DNA from: Pararhodobacter marinus
GTDB lineage: Bacteria; Pseudomonadota; Alphaproteobacteria; Rhodobacterales; Rhodobacteraceae
Direction: 5' to 3'
Length of the DNA stretch: 64,000 nt
Assembly (NCBI RefSeq): GCF_003122215.1
Contig: NZ_QEYD01000003.1
Location: 310,001 to 374,000 of the forward strand
Positions 32,945-37,427 of this stretch are shown here, in pieces; the first letter of the stretch is position 1; the number at the start of each line of letters is the position of its first letter. A program made the position numbers and the translations under genes. The notes under the pieces were generated by a model. It saw nothing but the letters and a program-made list of their open reading frames with translations. It was not told where the DNA came from and made no database searches.

Positions 32945-33142
32945 CCTTTCGCGGCAACGGCCAACCCGGCCACAACCCGCGCGGTCGCAAACGCCCCTCT
33001 GAAACAGTCCGTTTCCGGATTACCGCTTTTCGCGCCCGATCCTTGCCACAATCGGGCGCCGCCGCGCCGTATTTCGGCCACCGCCCGGGCCTAGGTAATC
33101 CGGGTATCGTGCCGCCGTGCATATCTGTAAAAGGTGATCCGA

Positions 33143-34411
33143 ATGCTGTCCCCGCGCCAGCCCAGGGCTCTTTGGGCCAATCATCCCTTCATTGCCGGTC
33201 TCTTTCGCTTTTCCCGCCAGGAAAGCGGGACGGTGGTCGTGTTCAGCCTGTTCATCCTTGTCGCGATGATCCTCGTCGGCGGCATCGCGGTGGACATGAT
33301 GCGCTACGAAAACGAACGCCTGCGGATGCAGAACGCGGCGGATCGCGCGGTTCTGGCCGCGACGATGCTGCGCGAGAACAATTCCGACGCCACGCCCGAA
33401 GACATCCTGCGCGCCTATTTCGCCGCCGAAGGGTTCAGCGACCAGCTCGGCTCGAATTTCCGGATCGAACAGGATGACGAGGACGGGCGCGTCGTCACCG
33501 TCTTCCCCTCGGGCACCGTGCCCTCGCTGTTCACCCAGTTCGTGGGCGTCGACAACTTCGCCATGACCACCCCCGCCCGCGCCGCCGAGCAATTCGACGG
33601 CGGACCCGATGTCGAGCTGGTGATGGTGCTGGACGTTTCGGGGTCGATGAACGGGCAACAGAAGATCGTCGCGATGCGCGACGCCGCCGCAGAGCTGGCG
33701 ACCACGCTTCTCAACGACGCCGAGGAAGTCGGGGATGTCGGCATCACGCTGGTTCCCTATGACACCTGGGTTCTGCCGCCGACCGGGTTTCTCAACAGCT
33801 TCGTCAACGTGATCGGCACGGGGGCGTGCAACGACTTCAGCAACTGGAACACGATCACGAACACGCTGAGCCTGCTCAGCATCCGGCAGAATTGCGCGAC
33901 CGATCCCTGGCGCATGGCGCGTCCCTATGTCAGCGACCCGGCCCTGGCCGAGCAGTACATTCAGGATCTCCGCGCGGCGGGGACAACCTCGATCGATCTG
34001 GGCGTGCGTTTCGGGGCGATGTTCTTCGACCCGGACCTGCGCCCCGTCATCAGCGAACTGATCGCCAATGGCGAGGTCGACCCTGCCTTCGAGGGTCGGC
34101 CCTATGACTGGGACGAACCCAATGTCGTGCGCGCCCTCATCCTGCTGACCGACGGCACCAATTGCTGCGGCGAGCGCTACGGCACGCAGACCCAGGACGA
34201 CAACACGCTGAGCGTGTGCAACGCGCTGAAGGATCAGGGCGTCCTGATCTACGCCATCGCCTACCAGGCGCCCAGCGCAGGGGCCGCCCTGATGCAGGGC
34301 TGCGCCTCGTCGCCCAGCCATTACTTCAACACCTCGGCCGACGAGATCATCAGCGTCTTCGAAGGCATCACCACGTCGATCCAGACGCAGCAATTGCGGT
34401 TGACGCTGTGA
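33143..34411 (+). CDS. TadG-like pilus-assembly protein with von Willebrand A domain
   Basis: A 422-residue protein. Residues about 29-52 form a TadE/TadG-type N-terminal membrane helix (ESGTVVVFSLFILVAMILVGG). The remainder is extracytoplasmic and contains a vWA domain with the MIDAS triad start D164-x-S166-x-S168 (VLDVSGSMNG), and ILLTDGTN as the later aspartate loop. TadG proteins belong to Flp/Tad pilus systems, but no tadA, tadB, tadC, cpaB or rcpA is in the window. It is the first of three overlapping genes. Start: ATG 33143, with AAAGG upstream; a GTG at 33134 is possible. Confidence 0.87.
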   Translation: MLSPRQPRALWANHPFIAGLFRFSRQESGTVVVFSLFILVAMILVGGIAVDMMRYENERLRMQNAADRAVLAATMLRENNSDATPEDILRAYFAAEGFSDQLGSNFRIEQDDEDGRVVTVFPSGTVPSLFTQFVGVDNFAMTTPARAAEQFDGGPDVELVMVLDVSGSMNGQQKIVAMRDAAAELATTLLNDAEEVGDVGITLVPYDTWVLPPTGFLNSFVNVIGTGACNDFSNWNTITNTLSLLSIRQNCATDPWRMARPYVSDPALAEQYIQDLRAAGTTSIDLGVRFGAMFFDPDLRPVISELIANGEVDPAFEGRPYDWDEPNVVRALILLTDGTNCCGERYGTQTQDDNTLSVCNALKDQGVLIYAIAYQAPSAGAALMQGCASSPSHYFNTSADEIISVFEGITTSIQTQQLRLTL

Positions 34412-34944
34412 CAGCCCTGCCACGCCTTCTGCGCCGTTTCGCGCGCCGCGAGGCCGGCACGACCACGGTCGAATTCGTGATCGTGCTGCCGATGGTGCTG
34501 GCGCTGCTGTTCTCGTCCATCGATTACGGCATCGTCATGCTGCGGCAGGTCTTTCTGGACCGCGCCGTCGACATCGCCGTGCGGCAGGTGCGGCTGGGCA
34601 ACGTGACGGGTGCGCAATACGACAATTTCCGCCAGCTCATCTGCGACAACACCTTCCTGATCGCCGATTGCGTGAACTCGATGGCGGTCGAGATGCATCC
34701 CGTCGATACCGCGACCTGGACCGGGCTCGATACCGACGCCCAATGCGTCAACCGCGAGCTCGAGCTGCATCCCGTCGTCTCCTTCCGCCCGGGCAACGGC
34801 GCGCAGGAGCTGATGCTGATCCGCGTCTGCGCCGTGGCCGATCCCTTCATCAGGCTGACCGGGCTGGTCATGGGGATGCCCGAAGACGAATCCGGCGGCT
34901 TCTTTCTGGTGTCCCACGCCGCTTTCGCCAACGAACCCACATGA
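34408..34944 (+). CDS. TadE-family pseudopilin-like protein
   Basis: A 178-residue protein starting at a GTG that overlaps the TadG stop (GTGA). It has a pilin-like processing motif: G17 followed by TTTVEFVIVLPMVLALLFSS, with glutamate at +5, as expected for cleavage by a TadV-type peptidase. The rest is a soluble, cysteine-containing domain. Family membership is good; whether it is a minor pilin of a Tad system encoded elsewhere is inference. Confidence 0.86.
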   Translation: MTALPRLLRRFARREAGTTTVEFVIVLPMVLALLFSSIDYGIVMLRQVFLDRAVDIAVRQVRLGNVTGAQYDNFRQLICDNTFLIADCVNSMAVEMHPVDTATWTGLDTDAQCVNRELELHPVVSFRPGNGAQELMLIRVCAVADPFIRLTGLVMGMPEDESGGFFLVSHAAFANEPT

Positions 34945-34952
34945 GGTCCGCC

Positions 34953-36797
34953 ATGCTTGACCAGTGCAGAGTGTACGCCGCCGGCTTCGACCGGGTTCGC
35001 CGCCGGGCGCGGGGTTTCGTCACCGGCGCGCGGGGCTCGGTGTCGATCGAGTTCGTCCTGTCCCTGCCGCTGATGCTGTGGGGCCTCGCCGCGATGGTGG
35101 TGTTCTTCAACGGCTACCAGGCGCGCTATCACGCGCAAATGGCCGCGCAGACCGTGGCCGACATCATGTCGCGCGAAACCAACCTGTTCACGGCCAATTA
35201 CATCGAGGGCCTGAACGACGTCTACGATTTCCTTGCCGATAACACCTATGAAACCCGGCTGCGCGTGTCGTCGGTGATCTGGGATTCCGCGAACGAGCGG
35301 AACCGGCTGCAATGGTCCTATGCGACCCGCGATCTGTCCGAGCTGCCCGCCGACGTGTTCGAGCTGCTCGATAACGGCGATTATGCGGGCCTGCAGCAAG
35401 CCTTCGGCGAAGACGAGTCCGTCACCTTCGCCAATGCCGTCTACCAGATGCCGGTCGAAGACCTTGCCGACCGTATCCCGCCCGTCCTGCCCGGCGAGGC
35501 GCTGCTCCTGGTCGAGGCGTTCTCGCTGTGGGAGCCTTTCGCCAATGTAGGGATCGGCCAGCTTCGGTTTTCTCCGGTCATCGTGGTGCGCCCGCGCTTC
35601 GCGCCCTGGATCAATTTCGACGGGATCGAGCCGATCTATCCCGAAACCGATTACGAGATCGCCTGGACCGGCGGCGGCAACGAGGAACTGCCCGATCCCG
35701 GCGACGAGGTCGACGAGCCCGATCCCGATACCGGGCAGGTCGCGAGCTTCGGCTTCGACGACGGCGTCACCACGGGCTTTTCGCAAAGCACGATCACCCA
35801 GAACGGCCCCAACGGCGCCTATCTCGGGCCGTTCGGGCAGGCAACGCGCAACGCGCCGGTCACGCTGAACGTGTCCTTGCCGCAAGCGGGCAGTGTCGCG
35901 ACGATCGAGTTCGATTTTCTCAGGATCGACAGCTGGGACGGGTTCGACGCGACATGGGGCGGGACGCTGGGCGACAGTTTCACGGTGATGATCGACGGCA
36001 CACCGATCTCGATGGATCCCTTCGTGCATTCCACGCTTGCGCCCTATCCCCGGAGCCGCGCCTCGGCCGGATACCTGCGGTCGATGACCTACCGCATGAC
36101 GATGACCCCGACGAGCCCGCTGCAAAACGTCACCGGCCAGTATTACGAGGACCAGACCTGGCATGTCGTGCTGACCATCGACAACGCGCCGCAGACTTTC
36201 CAGCTGGGTTTTTCCTCGACCCTGAGCGAGGACATCAACAACGAGGCCTGGGGCCTCGACAACCTGACGATCGCGTCGGCGGGCAGTGGAACGGCGCCGA
36301 GCTTCATCGCCGACCCGGCCCGTGCGCTCGGCGCGGATCCCAACACCCGCTTCCCGCGCTATTCAGGCTGCCCCGATTACCGGATCGCCGCGCCGTGGCT
36401 GTCCATGGGACGCTCGGATCTGGCCACCGGCATTCGCATGCCGCAGCGCACCGGAACGTCGACCAACCTGAGCGCCTGTGGCAACACGCTGCGCGGATGG
36501 GGCTGGATGAATGCCTCGCCCCACCTGATCCTCAATTACGACAACGAGAATATCAGCTCGACCAGCACGGCGCTGCAATTGCGTCTGGATGACGGCAACA
36601 GCGGCTATACCTGCGACACCACGCTCGCGGTGCGCGACCCGAACGGCCAGTGGTATTTCAATGACGATTACTCGGGCTGGAACGCGGGGCTGCGGATCAC
36701 CAACGCGCCGTCGGGTCAATACGTGATCTTCACCGGAGGCTATAGCAGCACCGCTTGCAATGCCCACCTGATCATCGATGAGTGGACCAACCGCTGA
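34953..36797 (+). CDS. TadE-like protein with large beta-rich C-terminal extension
   Basis: A 614-residue protein, about four times a normal TadE. The N-terminal processing motif is G28 followed by SVSIEFVLSLPLMLWGLAAM (glutamate at +5). A helical/mixed region (about 70-250) leads to an acidic linker (PDPGDEVDEPDPDTG), a predicted jellyroll-like region (about 260-450; SFGFDDGVTTGFSQS, EAWGLDNLTIAS) and a last domain with four cysteines and repeated D/N-G turns (LDDGNSGYTCDTTLAVRD, YFNDDYSGWNAG). The extension resembles lectin- or adhesin-type modules. The ATG at 34953 has GAGG six bases before it; an ATG at 34941 overlaps the previous stop. Confidence 0.83.
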   Translation: MLDQCRVYAAGFDRVRRRARGFVTGARGSVSIEFVLSLPLMLWGLAAMVVFFNGYQARYHAQMAAQTVADIMSRETNLFTANYIEGLNDVYDFLADNTYETRLRVSSVIWDSANERNRLQWSYATRDLSELPADVFELLDNGDYAGLQQAFGEDESVTFANAVYQMPVEDLADRIPPVLPGEALLLVEAFSLWEPFANVGIGQLRFSPVIVVRPRFAPWINFDGIEPIYPETDYEIAWTGGGNEELPDPGDEVDEPDPDTGQVASFGFDDGVTTGFSQSTITQNGPNGAYLGPFGQATRNAPVTLNVSLPQAGSVATIEFDFLRIDSWDGFDATWGGTLGDSFTVMIDGTPISMDPFVHSTLAPYPRSRASAGYLRSMTYRMTMTPTSPLQNVTGQYYEDQTWHVVLTIDNAPQTFQLGFSSTLSEDINNEAWGLDNLTIASAGSGTAPSFIADPARALGADPNTRFPRYSGCPDYRIAAPWLSMGRSDLATGIRMPQRTGTSTNLSACGNTLRGWGWMNASPHLILNYDNENISSTSTALQLRLDDGNSGYTCDTTLAVRDPNGQWYFNDDYSGWNAGLRITNAPSGQYVIFTGGYSSTACNAHLIIDEWTNR

Positions 36798-36833: not shown

Positions 36834-37427
36834 TCAGACCCGGGCGCCCGCCGCGTTCAGCACCATATCGACATAGATATCCTCGACCCGGTCGCGGCTG
36901 AGCCGCCCGCCCTCGCGGAACCAGGTATTCACCCCGGTCAGCATGGCGATCAGCGCCATCGTCGCAAGCTTGGTGTCGGGCACGGTCAGCGTGCCTTCGT
37001 CCTGACCCGCGCGCAGGATGCTCTCGAGCTCGGCCTCGTAGCATGAGCGCAGGGCACCGATCCGCGCGAAATTCTCGGGGGTGAGGTTACGCAACTCCAT
37101 ATAGGCGATGAAGACCGCATCCGCGCGCGCGGCGTGAAAGCGGATGTGGAAGCGCGCGAAATGCTCGAGCCGGTCGCGCGCATCGCCCTTGGGCGCCTCG
37201 GCCCGCCACGCGGCCAGCAAGGCTTCCATGTGGTCGGACATCGCGTCGAACAGAAGGCTCTGCTTGTCGGCGGTGTAAAGATAGAGCGCACCGGCCTGCA
37301 CCCCCACCTCGGCGGCGATCTGGCGCATCGAGACCGCCGCGTAGCCGTCGCGCGCAAACAGCCGCAAGGCGGTCTCGCGCAGTTTGGGGCCGGTGATCTC
37401 GGCGCGGGATCCGGGTTTTCGAGCCAT
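36834..37427 (-). CDS. TetR/AcrR-family transcriptional regulator
   Basis: A 197-residue regulator: N-terminal TetR helix-turn-helix (GPKLRETALRLFARDGYAAVSMRQIAAEVGVQAGALYLY) and an all-helical ligand domain. The N-terminus MARKPGSRAEIT and overall length resemble regulators of acyl-CoA metabolism, but the ligand is unknown. A perfect palindrome lies 14-27 nt upstream of its ATG, indicating autoregulation. A similar site precedes the isobutyryl-CoA dehydrogenase gene at 9.3 kb. Confidence 0.9.
   Translation of the reverse strand: MARKPGSRAEITGPKLRETALRLFARDGYAAVSMRQIAAEVGVQAGALYLYTADKQSLLFDAMSDHMEALLAAWRAEAPKGDARDRLEHFARFHIRFHAARADAVFIAYMELRNLTPENFARIGALRSCYEAELESILRAGQDEGTLTVPDTKLATMALIAMLTGVNTWFREGGRLSRDRVEDIYVDMVLNAAGARV

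Follow-up and report, generated by a model that had tools for sequence, protein, structure and literature searches.

The window analysed here is a stretch of 64,000 nucleotides from Pararhodobacter marinus (G000:C24:310001-374000 in the source genome). The gene under study is the third and last of an overlapping trio that encodes a TadG-like VWA protein, a TadE, and a fusion protein in which a TadE-like pilin is extended by further domains. The features of the locus, in positions of the window, are as follows.

33134 to 34411, forward strand: TadG/CpaL-like protein with Tad N-terminal and VWA domains (Pfam PF13400, 43.4 bits; PF00092, 30.8 bits)
34408 to 34944, forward strand: TadE minor pilin of 178 aa (Pfam PF07811, 40.3 bits), in which the leader Gly is followed by TTTVEF, with Glu at +5
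34953 to 36797, forward strand: open reading frame of the modular TadE-like minor pilin (the fusion protein), 614 aa
34953 to 35036, forward strand: prepilin leader of the fusion protein, residues 1-28, ending with Gly28, as read from the sequence
35037 to 35618, forward strand: pilin core, residues 29-222, comprising the helix and a TadE-like soluble part
35619 to 35738, forward strand: acidic Asp/Pro/Gly linker, residues 223-262
35739 to 36275, forward strand: middle domain, residues 263-441, about ten-stranded and jellyroll-like
36360 to 36788, forward strand: C-terminal domain, residues 470-612, a PPC-like beta-sandwich with four cysteines
36834 to 37427, reverse strand: TetR-type regulator, convergent neighbour of the trio, assigned by eye

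The start of tadE overlaps the stop of the TadG-like gene (GTGA). The fusion gene has another possible start, an in-frame ATG at 34941 that overlaps the tadE stop (ATGA), but the start at 34953 is favoured because a GAGG is located 6 nt upstream of it. The TadG/CpaL-like protein carries the DxSxS (MIDAS) motif in its VWA domain (D167-S171), and its leader motif is G-X4-F, with Phe instead of Glu at +5. A frameshift, mis-assembly, or chance as the origin of the fusion ORF was ruled out, the same architecture being present in seven genomes of two genera. In every domain of the fusion protein dN was lower than dS, all parts being under purifying selection. The TetR-type protein is a possible regulator of the trio. 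Its gene also adjoins the fusion gene in G222 and, in the other genus, in G505, with the remaining neighbours differing.

The pilin identity and the modular make-up of the fusion protein are well supported. The leader reads MLDQCRVYAAGFDRVRRRARGFVTGARG / SVSIEF, with the cut predicted between Gly28 and Ser29, by which Glu33 takes position +5, and a single hydrophobic stretch (helix) follows the predicted cut, just as the preliminary description of this locus had it. Among the seven distinct fusion proteins, the residue at -1 is Gly in five and Ala in two, and the Glu at +5 is invariant. Pfam TadE (PF07811) was matched above cut-off at 26.7 bits in the whole-genome scan and just under the 22.9 cut-off in hmmscan (residues 28-69, 21.8 bits). 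Short TadE-like orthologues align with the fusion protein over the pilin core, which stops where the unfused orthologues stop (RPRFAP...). The earlier estimate of about four times a normal TadE was too high, the protein being about three times as long as unfused orthologues with clean starts (179-224 aa) and 3.4 times as long as the neighbouring TadE. The acidic linker described at the time is indeed present (14 of its 40 residues are D/E), and so are the four cysteines of the final domain; these (473, 509, 554, 602) are exactly the cysteines of the mature protein, a fifth, Cys5, being located in the leader. What had been read as one extension of about 350 residues is in fact two separate domains.

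Of the family's 295 genomes, 227 gave a match to some part of the fusion query, in most cases to its pilin part (residues 14-128). Full-length relatives are limited to two genera, namely Pararhodobacter with its close kin (L004-L006, with L005 identical in sequence to G222) and one further genus (G179, G476, and G505). The four cysteines, the Glu at +5, and the domain order are all kept in the alignment of the fusion proteins. In quick trees, the pilin parts of the fusions formed one clade (SH-aLRT 99), as did the middle domains (98) and the C domains (99); the window's own row, L001, fell inside the fusion clade of the pilin-part tree, though it was not labelled there as a fusion. With one clade for each of the three parts, the three-part fusion probably arose once and was inherited as a unit, as far as these sequences indicate.

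Both modules of the extension were found to recur, recurrence being a check proposed in the preliminary description, and the middle one does so on Flp-type pilins as well. The middle domain, for which the Pfam scan returned no family, recurs in 30 of the 292 genomes of the order. In 11 of these 292 it is placed after the N-terminus of an Flp-type prepilin, the genes encoding about 230-270 aa (L074, L082, L083, L087, L088, L092, L093, L095, and L096, with weaker cases in L091 and L094), and this N-terminus matches that of the genome's own tad-operon Flp (ESGAVTVDWVVLTA). Where their surroundings were inspected the Flp-middle-domain genes are solitary, for instance beside aroC, and a literature search retrieved no description of Flp-type prepilins fused to this domain. 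In plasmid searches the pilin part drew just two weak matches and the Flp fusion drew none. The middle domain also occurs inside long RTX-repeat proteins, the one scanned adding PA14 and Hint domains, and on two jumbo-phage contigs of 277 and 462 kb, each time as part of a large protein that looks structural (L124:2475-6509 and L126:2001-2555). Beside one Flp-middle-domain gene, a second protein combines a middle-like domain with a membrane anchor of another kind and has no prepilin motif (L120:9624-10226). The middle domain is a mobile module that links TadE-type and Flp-type pilins.

The search with the C domain gave matches in 58 of the 292 genomes of the order, and no relative was found with it among viral contigs. 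In small secreted proteins it follows what look like signal peptides, and secreted proteins contain it as single, double, or six-fold copies, some with LCCL domains; it is likewise a mobile module. In the window's genome and its sister species, secreted proteins carry the four-cysteine domain in up to six copies together with LCCL (L100:4805-5998, L106:1886-3106, and L106:3254-6412; LCCL was tested in two of the three), and two adjoining small secreted proteins consist of the C domain alone, in one copy and in two (L098:7743-9393, corresponding to G000:C24:207.7-209.4 kb). Over 78 C domains, the cysteine pattern was CCCC in 65 and CC-- in 9, the third and fourth cysteines always being lost together; disulphides 473-509 and 554-602 are therefore expected, and the domain would be braced by both. 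The Pfam PPC family (PF04151) matched at 16.1-16.7 bits, under the curated cut-off of 25.9, which is why the domain is called PPC-like only.

Structure prediction and a fold search had also been suggested at the outset; the disordered fold that would have spoken against a binding domain was not seen, but confidence in the model is low. Single-sequence AlphaFold of the whole fusion protein reached a pLDDT of 34, and an AlphaFold-type model of the extension, built on eight alignment rows (four proteins and pieces of two phage proteins), had a mean pLDDT of 48 and a pTM of 0.46, with the core strands of the middle domain at 70-80. The C-domain model aligns with the C-terminal domains of the subtilases KP-43 (Z 9.5) and SubHal (Z 9.4) at about 20% identity, with the ColG collagen-binding domain at Z 8.0, and with a Bacillus PPC domain at Z 7.5; these scores against PPC-type domains (Z 7.5-9.5) concern model residues 523-610, where the local pLDDT is only about 44-59. 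A PPC-like fold is thus suggested by a low-confidence model, in agreement with the weak Pfam PPC match. Some PPC domains bind, as in clostridial collagenase, and others are just accessory domains of proteases; the C domain of the fusion differs from PPC domains such as that of ColG (PF04151) in having a conserved C-P start and, probably, two disulphides. The middle-domain model matched many jellyroll modules, mostly at Z 6-8, with none standing out, and Z values of about 6-8 are the level of a common arrangement that is frequent by chance. The model supports a jellyroll-like middle domain, and its fold does not indicate a ligand. The likeness extends to jellyroll carbohydrate-binding modules (CBM35 and similar, and BcsB) at Z about 6-8, although no sequence relation between these and the middle domain was found. 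No CBM or lectin family gave a sequence match above cut-off for the extension domains, and PDB sequence searches with the protein and both domain profiles returned nothing meaningful, no solved binding domain being matched.

The genome possesses a tad operon on another contig (L122:4574-15590, G000:C4), encoding an A24 prepilin peptidase, TadC, TadB, TadA, a TadZ-like ATPase, a secretin, RcpC/CpaB, and an Flp pilin; no tadE, tadF, or tadG was seen in it. The Pfam Flp_Fap scan of the genome detected no Flp, and it was a motif scan that found the one beside the tad operon, which has Asp for Glu at +5 (Gly followed by AVTVDW). The best-scoring T2SSE-type ATPase, on contig C30, was rejected as TadA, for it sits in a type II secretion operon; the TadA is the one on C4. 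A second TadE/TadG pair is located at C24:195-197 kb. Only three TadE domains in the genome score above cut-off, so the genome encodes no other protein of the fusion's type, and the fusion takes the place of the short form rather than supplementing it. The VWA/TadG-like protein and two TadE-like minor pilins are co-encoded, with a Tad system in the same genome, and, the trio not being linked to the tad operon, its use by that Tad machine is a matter of inference.

We consider it reasonably probable that the fusion protein is a modular Tad (type IVc) minor pilin in a tip complex akin to CpaJ/CpaK/CpaL or KilLMN, where it would display ligand-binding or surface-sensing modules. Its TadE-like N-terminus would be cut by the TadV-type prepilin peptidase of the tad operon, and the cut protein, sitting in the inner membrane, would pack with its operon partners, the TadE and the VWA-bearing TadG-like protein, to form a minor-pilin complex that may start the pilus and finish at its tip. 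The two beta-sandwich modules, of which the C-terminal one would be braced by two disulphides, would then be held out by the acidic linker and could act outside the cell as heads that bind a ligand (most likely glycan or matrix) or sense surfaces. This reading is carried by the leader motif, the operon, the apparent single-origin fusion, the modularity, and the presence of a Tad machine, all sequence-level evidence. Filament assembly is initiated by tip complexes, whose capping subunit lacks Glu5 (PMC10191384), and the TadG-like partner with Phe at +5 fits this; on the strength of published precedents for modular tips, we infer that the trio forms such a complex, with the fusion protein holding the modules out. 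Its pilin module is followed by added domains that are not specific to pilus biology, both recurring in non-pilin proteins. The minor pilin with grafted beta-rich modules envisaged in the preliminary description has gained ground in its anchor, its modules, and a Tad system with prepilin peptidase in the same genome; adhesin is the leading, yet unproven, role.

The extension might instead have a structural or regulatory role in the tip complex (spacer, cap, or mechanosensor), its modules contacting the VWA partner or stabilising the tip and any binding being left to the VWA domain. That partner has a MIDAS motif of its own, PPC-like domains can be accessory, and the fusion is rare across a family in which the pilin core is common. 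In Caulobacter, moreover, attachment rises and surface sensing is altered when cpaL is deleted (PMC12607857). Such a role nevertheless strikes us as rather unlikely, given that both modules also belong to proteins that have no VWA partner (solitary Flp-type pilins, RTX-repeat, small secreted, and phage structural-looking proteins) and are therefore not adapted to one tip partner, and that the dN of the middle domain between relatives is about three times that of the pilin core, more like an outward-facing part.

It is improbable that the fusion protein acts outside the Tad pilus, either by staying in the inner membrane or periplasm or by serving another filament such as the T2SS of this genome. 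TadE/TadG-type pilins go with Tad systems, which we count against this, and TadA kin were present in all five of the fusion genomes tested. The separation of the trio from the tad operon and the T2SS operon on C30 would favour it, but the pseudopilin-like genes of that system sit within the T2SS operon itself (by eye); the Ala at -1 in two relatives points the same way, yet it lies within the G/A-X4-F/E consensus given for CpaL (PMC12607857). Very improbable indeed is a function of the modules as an enzyme or protease-associated part in place of a binding or sensing head, for which the alignments to KP-43 and SubHal speak. No catalytic domain was detected in the fusion protein by the Pfam scan, and the part of the two subtilases matched is their C-terminal and, we take it, non-catalytic domain. 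The tip-complex reading has its own counterpoints in the weak model with its unremarkable middle-domain matches, the fruitless PDB sequence searches, the Ala at -1 in two relatives, the distance of the trio from the tad operon, and the fact that PPC-like domains do not always bind.

A wider suggestion, offered tentatively, is that the middle domain serves as a display module, not described before, which Rhodobacterales have moved between pilin classes (Flp-type and TadE-type) and secreted RTX-repeat proteins, thereby equipping Tad pili with a receptor-binding head at the tip, and perhaps along the shaft too; its occurrence in jumbo phages may hint at a shared kind of ligand, for example a surface polysaccharide. 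Other type IV pilins have a globular head that Tad pilins lack, and Tad pili must therefore gain specificity elsewhere. To our knowledge, few module-bearing Tad minor pilins have been described, and a literature search returned no paper on a TadE with such an extension.

Among known systems, CpaL of Caulobacter crescentus joins a pilin to a VWA domain and has a G/A-X4-F/E site, and CpaJ and CpaK are proposed to pair with it (PMC12607857). The window's trio likewise comprises a pilin-like protein bearing a VWA domain and two pilins of the small TadE type, with G/A-X4-F/E leader sites and a MIDAS in the VWA partner, but here one of the CpaJ/K-type partners bears two extra modules, and the likeness drawn is one of gene set and motifs. 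By this analogy CpaJ and CpaK would be the closest functional counterparts of the fusion protein, with 'TadE' remaining correct by domain. In the Tad-like Kil pilus of Myxococcus xanthus, TadE/F/G-type minor pilins with C-terminal modules are proposed to functionalise the tip (PMC12075869), although the large modular subunit among KilL, KilM, and KilN is KilN, which is likened to TadG, and the KilN4 domain is of another make-up. The S. sanguinis PilB (VWA) and PilC (ConA-like lectin) demonstrate that modules grafted on pilins serve adhesion, and there too the domains are not pilus-specific and are placed behind the pilin module (PMC8179133); those are T4aP pilins of a Gram-positive, however, and the accompanying survey of 264 architectures began with IPR012902 pilins, not with TadE or Flp pilins. 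Set beside these systems, the fusion protein is ordinary in kind, a modular pilin, and new in what it combines: the carrier is of TadE type, one module, so far undescribed, is also found on Flp-type pilins, and the other is PPC-like with its cysteines in pairs. As a TadE-type module-bearing pilin with two defined, recurrent modules and close kin in the cultured Pararhodobacter aggregans, it renders the specificity of Tad pili directly testable.
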